Positions 13,793 through 16,158 of a DNA stretch of 64,000 nt are shown one piece after another. Both the position numbers and the translations under genes were made by a program. The DNA lies in NCBI GenBank assembly GCA_033549065.1, contig JAWSUE010000003.1:124001-188000 (forward strand), written 5' to 3'. The notes beneath the pieces were generated by a model. It worked only from the letters and a program-made list of their open reading frames with translations. It was not told the origin of the DNA and made no database searches. Within the stretch, counting starts at the first letter, position 1; each line of letters opens with the position of its first letter. This DNA is from Bacillota bacterium (GTDB taxonomy: Bacteria > Bacillota > Dethiobacteria > DTU022).

Positions 13793-15259
13793 TTAGGCAA
13801 ATTCCTTTTCTGCATCGGTAATTATATCTTTAAATGTTTGCGCTGCACCAGCGGGCAGGGGTTCCGGCTGATGTGTTGCCAGGACCTCTTTGGCAAATTC
13901 ATTACAGCGGGTGTGCATGTCTTTTCCGCCGGAATCTTTCCAGATTCCCCGTGTATTGCGGTCAATCAATTTACTCTGTGATTGGTGCATCTTAAAGTTA
14001 TCATAGGTATGCTGATGAGTTACAAATTCACCACCGATGCCTACTTCCCTGATTATATCCACAGCCAGGGTTTCATCATTTACCGGCACCCCGTCGAGCA
14101 TCCGTTTGATCATTCGCACAAATTCATTATCGGCAACCAAAAGGCCTAAATCCATGGTCATTCCAAGCTCTACCATACCAAGACCGTAAATCATGTTGGC
14201 ACCTGCCAACGCTGCGGTCATGAGTGTCAGAGTCCTTTCCTGACCGGCCTGAAGATCGCCCAGCTTACTGTCTGTCTATGATCCGGCCAGGAAGCTGGGT
14301 ATCCGGTATTTCTTTGCCATGGCAGCTACACAGGCTCCTATCATGGCCATTTCCGGACAACCTACCGTAGCAGTGCCCCGGCGCATTTCCATCATGGTGG
14401 TTGAACTGCCATAGATATTCGGGGTTCCCTTTTTGGTCAACTGGCTGAGACATATTCCGGCCAGAACCTCTGCATTATGGGTTACCAGGGTGCCGGCCAA
14501 GGTTACAGGGCTCGTCCCGCCAGCCAAAGCCATAGACAGAACATTGACCGGTATTTCATTTCTGGCATATGAAATTATCGTTTCGCAGGTTTCCCGGGCA
14601 AGGGATAAAGGACTCTGCGGACATACATCTGCAGAGATAATCGGCCTTTGCCTCAGTTTATCCTTCCCGCCAACTACTGCTGAAGCCATATCGATGATCA
14701 ACTCGGCCAGCCGGAAGTTGAAAGGTGCCGTACTACAGTGTTTTGAGGTGTTGGAAATCATGGCTTCGAAATTATGCAGTGGGAAAACGCTCTGTTTGAC
14801 ATCACGGGGCACTACCGGGCAGTCAAGGATATCATACTGGTCAAGATAGTCAACCAGTTTAGATATATCCTCAGTATCTTTCTTGGTCGACTCTCTTATG
14901 CTTCCGTCTTCAAGATCGGCAACCTGAACCCCGCAGCTGAAGTTGCAAAACCCGACACGTTTTCCGCCCATCACAAAATCATGCTCAGGGTTACGAGCGG
15001 CCATTATAAAACTTGGTGGCGCGGAACGGATGCAATCTTCGACAACATAAGCTGGAAAATATACTGTGCTTGTTGCTTGATCTACGGTACACCCACCGCT
15101 GTAATAAATTTCCAAAGCTTCATCACTGTAAACTTTTATTCCGGTAAATTTCAGAACTTCCAGTGTGGCATCATGGATACGATCAATCGCCGCATCGGAA
15201 AGGCAGCTGATGCCAAAGCCTTCATACATACTTTCACCCGCAGCTTTACTGCGTCTCAC
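13793..15259 (-). CDS. mttB: Trimethylamine methyltransferase MttB with in-frame UAG (pyrrolysine)
   Basis: One reading frame of 488 residues if the amber codon at 14276-14278 is read as an amino acid. Codon 328 is TAG, flanked by FLAGS and TDSKLGDLQAGQE, and the frame continues without shift to a TAA at 13793-13795. Methanosarcina MttB is of similar size with pyrrolysine near residue 334, so this is very likely pyrrolysine rather than decay. The enzyme moves a methyl group from trimethylamine to a corrinoid protein (MttC). No mttC, mtbA or pyl gene lies in this window. The GTG start at 15259 follows AAGGAGG. If UAG is not suppressed, a 327-residue fragment results. Confidence 0.88.
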
Positions 15260-15349
15260 TGTATATAACCTCCTTAAACTGTCTTATAAAACAGCAATCT
15301 TTATTTTTGCCAGAGCAATAATACCACAGTTATGAAATGCCGGTCAAAA

Positions 15350-16158
15350 TTATCTGGGTCTTTTATTTTTATTTTTGACAAAATCTCGGGCGTTTTTTAT
15401 GCCCCCGAAACCGGAAAACATTTCATCGATCTTTGCCTTTTCAATCTGCTTCGAATCGAGCCCGTCATAGCGGGCTTCCTTTTTCAATTTAAGGTAATTT
15501 TCGAGACGTTTTGCAGTAATTTCCCCGTTCTCAACTGCTTTTTTTACCGCGCAGCCGGGTTCTACCGTATGTGAACAGTCATTGAACCGACACCCGGCTG
15601 AGAGCCCTTCAATATCTGCAAACGTCTTCCCAATATCTGCAGTCTCTACTCCCAGTTCTCGCTTTCCCGGAGTATCAATGACAGCACCGCCGGACGGAAT
15701 AAAAAAAAGTTCTCTTCGTGATGTGGTGTGTTTGCCTTTTCCATCTTTCCTGATTTCTAACATTCAAGGCGGCGCAGGTTAAAATCACTATTCAATGCCA
15801 TGCAGATGAAAATAAAGTCTATATTGACTGCCACAACCTGGGTATCCTGAGCAGTTCCCGCTGCTTTCCGTTCAAAGATGCTCTTTCTGTTCAGGATGTG
15901 GTGGATTATGGCATTTCCAGTGCTGCTGTTATCGTGGTCAACCATGACAAAGTCACCTGTTACCGGATAATCTGCACTTCCTGCAGCATTGAATTTGATC
16001 CTTCCACTTACTTCCGCAAAAATTTCTCCTGAAGTTGTCGCCACCTTGTATAATCCCTGGTAGTGGGTAATCACCCTCCCCGGGAATAACTGGTCATAGG
16101 AGGAAGCTTCCTGGATAGCTCTTTCAGAAAATCCAAGTTCAATCAATTTATTGTTCAT
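15350..16158 (-). pseudogene. rsgA: rsgA (ribosome small-subunit GTPase) broken by internal deletion
   Basis: The 5' part (16158-15757) encodes the OB-fold N-terminus of RsgA/YjeQ and stops shortly after N-F-N-L-R-R-L-E. The 3' part (from about 15763 to 15350) resumes in another frame at the R-K-D-G-K-G-K-H-T-T stretch, then V-I-D-T-P-G (G3) and the C-terminal zinc finger C-R-F-N-D-C-S-H...C. In intact RsgA about 90 residues containing G4 (NKxD), G5 and the P-loop (GxxGxGKS) lie between. They are gone, so no GTPase activity is possible. RsgA normally matures 30S subunits and is dispensable in many bacteria. A sequencing or assembly collapse is an alternative. Confidence 0.8.

Follow-up and report, generated by a model that had tools for sequence, protein, structure and literature searches.

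Pyrrolysine (Pyl) is the rare 22nd amino acid, and a gene that appears to encode it through an in-frame UAG raises the question of whether the codon is read through in its host and what the resulting protein does. In a 64,000-nucleotide stretch of DNA from a Bacillota bacterium (hereafter the window), a first-pass annotation made from the sequence alone had placed such a gene, mttB, at 13793-15259. These coordinates proved correct, and the strand, which had been left unstated, is minus. The features relevant to the gene are as follows:

13793..15259, minus strand: mttB, Pyl type, Ser110 subgroup; 488 codons from a GTG start to a TAA stop, interrupted by one in-frame TAG
14276..14278, minus strand: the in-frame TAG, codon 328, equivalent of Pyl334 of M. 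barkeri MttB
15269..15274, minus strand: AGGAGG, putative ribosome-binding site of mttB read from the sequence, 9 bases 5' of the GTG
14933..14938, minus strand: codons 108-109, Ser-Cys, where M. barkeri MttB has the Gly110-Thr111 cis peptide (ungapped alignment)
14186..14188, minus strand: codon 358, Tyr, equivalent of the catalytic Tyr364 (alignment)

Translation with TAG read as O gave a frame running from the GTG at 15259 to the TAA at 13793, with the TAG as its sole interruption and 160 in-frame codons downstream of it, while the plus strand over the same interval contains many stops and is closed. The read-through protein matched the TIGR02369 profile (trimeth_pyl) over residues 16-484 with 679.7 bits, compared to a curated cut-off of 525 bits, confirming the earlier claim that codon 328 is a TAG followed by 160 in-frame codons of MttB homology. 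The TAG had also been placed near residue 334 of methanogen MttB, and a gap-free, full-length alignment puts codon 328 exactly at Pyl334 (given as X) of M. barkeri MttB (PDB 7xcl). The window protein has Tyr358 at the position of Tyr364, the residue that hydrogen-bonds the imine water, and Ser108 at the position of Gly110; the usual trait is absent at this latter site, and Gly110 is not part of the family definition. Standard gene callers split mttB in two, so that the pathway would be overlooked both here and in related genomes.

Reading UAG as pyrrolysine depends on dedicated machinery, and the first-pass annotation had proposed a search of the genome for pyl genes, with their absence counting as refutation. 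The genome (G000) is a 2.39-Mb draft in 61 contigs, approximately 98% complete, and it carries one complete bacterial pyl cassette on contig C5:

L015:7200-7271, contig C5: tRNA-Pyl, CUA anticodon
L015:7312-8154, contig C5: pylSc (TIGR02367, 351 bits)
L015:8212-9297, contig C5: pylB (508 bits)
L015:9318-10493, contig C5: pylC (434 bits)
L015:10506-11360, contig C5: pylD (250 bits)
L015:11314-11691, contig C5: pylSn (124 bits)

In the profile search, PylSc, PylB, PylC, PylD and PylSn all exceeded curated cut-offs, and the tRNA-Pyl fold displays a 4-bp D stem, a 5-base D loop and a long anticodon stem. The pyrrolysyl-tRNA synthetase (PylRS) is split into PylSc and PylSn as in other bacteria, e.g., Ca. 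Formimonas warabiya DCMF (hereafter DCMF; PMC6778437). The genome contains four more methylamine methyltransferase genes interrupted by TAG, namely one mttB and three mtbB; a TAG-mttB and a TAG-mtbB are adjacent on C4, and TAG-mtbB genes are also present on C8 and C2, both adjoining corrinoid protein genes. A gene for mtmB was not found in this genome.

The TAG is also conserved. TAG occupies the position of codon 328 in all same-family homologues recovered from other assemblies whose sequence spans the site. In comparisons with six relatives (84-88% identity), dN/dS 3' of the TAG was approximately 0.05-0.10, a rough value given that dS is near saturation, and the excess of differences at third codon positions was alike before and after the TAG. 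These substitution patterns indicate that the part of mttB after the TAG is under strong purifying selection. Together with the conservation of the codon, this implies that the TAG is neither a chance occurrence, a true stop nor a sequencing error.

Among the 98 genomes of the class, 14 have both a TAG-MttB and PylS, 2 have a TAG-MttB only, 5 have PylS only and 77 have neither (Fisher p 4e-11 for co-occurrence). This pattern and the pyl cassette support the earlier designation of the organism as a pyrrolysine-using bacterium, and the description of that state as uncommon is fair: when 398 genomes were sampled from the phylum, 26 had an above-cut-off MttB, mostly with TAG. A different decoding system was considered for the two genomes with TAG-MttB and lacking pyl genes (G042 and G036), and was rejected. 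In G042, pylB lies near a contig end, which points to an assembly gap rather than different decoding. G036 (contigs C44, C73 and C102) is 96% complete and has several TAG-MttBs, with PylS and PylB not found, most likely as a result of incomplete binning. In G022 (C12:346-1376), pylSc is present, pylB is divided between two reading frames and TAG-MttB was not found, perhaps indicating a decaying pyl system. We also observed MttBs that nest within the Pyl-MttB family, or score alongside it, and whose Pyl site carries a sense codon for His, Ile, Leu, Met, Val or Trp (L132, L094, L095:9366, L096:4768, L097, L098, L099, L077 and, in DCMF, L157-L159), those in L095 and L096 adjoining a TAG paralogue. 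Their codons indicate repeated loss of pyrrolysine within the family.

Our preferred reading, to which we assign a probability of roughly 90%, is that the window gene encodes a Pyl-containing, corrinoid-dependent, MttB-type methylamine methyltransferase in which UAG 328 is decoded as Pyl and the Ser110 site is altered. PylB, PylC and PylD would synthesise pyrrolysine, the split PylRS would charge tRNA-Pyl(CUA) with it, and UAG codon 328 would be decoded as Pyl. The amine, most likely trimethylamine, would then be bound as an adduct of the Pyl imine, which would offer one methyl group to Co(I) in a corrinoid protein whose gene lies in another part of the genome. Ser110 would be expected to change the kinetics of activation or the choice of amine, without abolishing function. 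Against this reading stand the isolation of the gene, the ordinary use of TAG as a stop elsewhere in the genome and the draft state of the assembly.

Were UAG 328 instead to terminate translation, mttB would be a pseudogene or would encode a 327-residue protein. TAG is a normal stop in this genome, ending 45 of 191 long genes (approximately one quarter) in the 238 kb sampled, with no enrichment of back-up stops behind these TAG-ended genes, and the neighbouring rsgA is broken, both of which are compatible with termination. However, the genome holds a complete pyl cassette, the TAG is kept across the family and the 160 codons beyond it are under strong purifying selection, making termination highly improbable. 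A conventional suppressor tRNA might instead insert some other amino acid at UAG 328, but none of the evidence collected favors this; given that tRNA-Pyl and its cognate synthetase are present and that codon 328 coincides with Pyl in a homologue of known structure, we judge it even more improbable than termination.

With pyrrolysine decoding as the favored explanation, the fact that TAG is also an ordinary stop means that UAG must be interpreted in a conditional or leaky way. A passage of PMC8318568 citing Prat et al. 2012 describes pyl genes of other Firmicutes as being under substrate control, and by analogy, similar control is likely in the window organism. Given that UAG is a stop in about one in four sampled genes, the organism provides a good case for bacterial life with two meanings of UAG. 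Both meanings appear in a single gene, the mtbB on C8 (L053:9257-10642, minus strand), which has the Pyl TAG at codon 347, a terminal TAG and a TAA four codons on. An RNA element was also considered as the cause of read-through, based on the following match:

14179..14278, minus strand: Rfam PYLIS_3 (RF02510), 59.5 bits against a gathering score of 38

The fold of this region has a z-score of -1.2. PYLIS_3 also scores above gathering at L039:12096-12195, in an MttB homologue with TTG instead of TAG. A PYLIS stem-loop was rejected as the cause of read-through because the model matches the TTG homologue and the fold is not unusual; the match probably reflects shared coding sequence and not a needed RNA element.

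The most distinctive property of the window protein is its Ser110 site. Previous structural work reported Gly110 and Tyr364 to be fully conserved in Pyl-MttBs, with Gly110 at 100% in 66 sequences, and assigned Gly110 a part in activating the pyrroline: its carbonyl, together with Tyr364, retains the water molecule encountered by the pyrroline imine. The same study described binding of the corrin ring by the peptide NH of Gly110-Thr111 (PMC9842639). Across 59 TAG-MttBs plus M. barkeri MttB, Ser replaces Gly110 in the window protein and nine others, and the remaining 50 have Gly110. The ten Ser110 proteins come from the same family or from Bacillota bins without placement, the most distant being that of an AS08 Clostridia bin (58%), and all ten retain Met249, the Pyl TAG, Tyr364 and Gly372. 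The 50 Gly110 Pyl-MttBs share 53 invariant positions, and among these Gly110 alone is altered in all 10 clade members tested. The Ser110 group forms one clade (SH-aLRT 99) on a long stem (0.45), and when the tree was enlarged with the 13 TAG-MttBs of the complete DCMF genome, one of which has Ser110, the clade comprised 11 sequences (support 100/99), with Ser in 11 of 11. The clade is old and separate among Pyl-MttBs. Single DCMF TAG-MttBs also depart from conserved residues, with Ala110 in L154, Phe364 in L153 and Leu364 in L155. The Ser110 clade and these DCMF exceptions imply that the published Gly110/Tyr364 rule is not general in bacteria, and the clade offers a natural experiment on how pyrrolysine is activated in MttB according to the published model, in that the "universal" glycine is swapped and the rest is kept. 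No description of the Ser110 subgroup was found in the open-access literature searched.

In the family of the window organism the gene stands alone, and the window mttB has no corrinoid protein or transporter gene adjacent, implying that its corrinoid partner would be encoded elsewhere in the genome. Seven candidate corrinoid protein genes are present, two of them on C5, where they are accompanied by a URO-D-type methyltransferase at a distance of approximately 11 kb from the pyl cassette. In several relatives, the window-type mttB is preceded by ybeY, era and recO and followed by glyQS; gene neighbourhood was rejected as a clue to the substrate because these neighbours are housekeeping genes. 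Directly upstream of mttB in the window, rsgA (15350-16158, minus strand) is broken, the P-loop-bearing middle part being missing and the frame shifted compared to the intact L033 copy. Scans for promoters and terminators gave no more hits than in shuffles. In distant members of the Ser110 clade, from DCMF (L170:5454-9091) and the AS08 bin (L038), the gene order is mtbB(TAG)-corrinoid protein-mttB(TAG), and this operon ties the clade to methylamine use. The window MttB is therefore most likely a second methyltransferase for trimethylamine or a close amine.

It is possible, if somewhat doubtful, that Pyl decoding occurs as proposed but that the substrate of the Ser110 clade is another tertiary amine or an N-oxide, with the canonical mttB serving trimethylamine. 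A canonical Gly110 copy is indeed also present in the Ser110 genomes checked (G000, G028, G029 and G042), the clade combines its long stem with one replacement, common to all members, at an active-site position that is invariant elsewhere, and diverged substrates are known among non-Pyl relatives of MttB (PMC9768040). On the other hand, the remaining known active-site residues are retained in the clade, its distant members lie in the operon that points to methylamines, and DCMF has 13 Pyl-MttBs, so copy number alone is no sign of new substrates. We consider it unlikely that the clade is functionally distinct, either because Ser110 replaces the Gly110-bound water in pyrroline activation or because the pocket is reshaped for an amine other than trimethylamine; if true, the clade would provide the first case of a new substrate for a Pyl-MttB.

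Pyrrolysine is already known in anaerobic Bacillota, including DCMF, Desulfitobacterium, Desulfotomaculum and Thermincola (PMC6778437), which makes the window case a further example of a pyrrolysine-using bacterium. What is new here is the lineage, mostly uncultured Bacillota, and the Ser110 subgroup; the case is ordinary as a finding on the genetic code and mildly novel as an active-site variant. M. barkeri MttB (PDB 7xcl, 7xcm; PMC9842639) aligns with the window protein over its full length at approximately 42% identity with Pyl in the same column, and the two have Met249, Tyr364 and Gly372 in common. In contrast, Gly110-Thr111 of M. barkeri is Ser-Cys in the window protein, Asp297 is Glu, and Ser takes the place of Glu225, the residue that MttB contributes to the salt bridge with MttC. 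The other Pyl-MttB encoded in this genome (C4, L019:8573-10048) is 51% identical to the window protein and has its TAG at codon 331 and Tyr364, but unlike the window copy it has Gly110-Glu111, adjoins a TAG-mtbB and scores higher against TIGR02369 (729.5 vs 679.7 bits). The non-Pyl MttB superfamily, with MtgB-type glycine betaine methyltransferases (PDB 2qne, 9yce), shares the fold and the family PF06253 and is represented by seven copies in this genome; these enzymes differ in having a sense codon and no TAG at the Pyl site, and their residue 364 is mostly His, Ser or Cys. A DCMF Pyl-MttB of the same clade (4656657-4658066, L148) has the TAG and Ser110 and is 58% identical to the window protein; it has Lys at 111 and lies in an mtbB-corrinoid-mttB operon, whereas the window protein has Cys at 111 and its gene is alone. 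Metaproteomics of DCMF detected seven Pyl-containing MttB superfamily proteins (PMC9768040), and the spacing of two tags, 114321p22 and 114324p25, fits the operon at 4.654-4.658 Mb (a split mtbB, one gene and a split mttB). Based on this mapping, which derives from gene numbers and differs from PMC9768040 in that both tags are called MttB there, the DCMF Ser110 enzyme may be among the proteins already detected.
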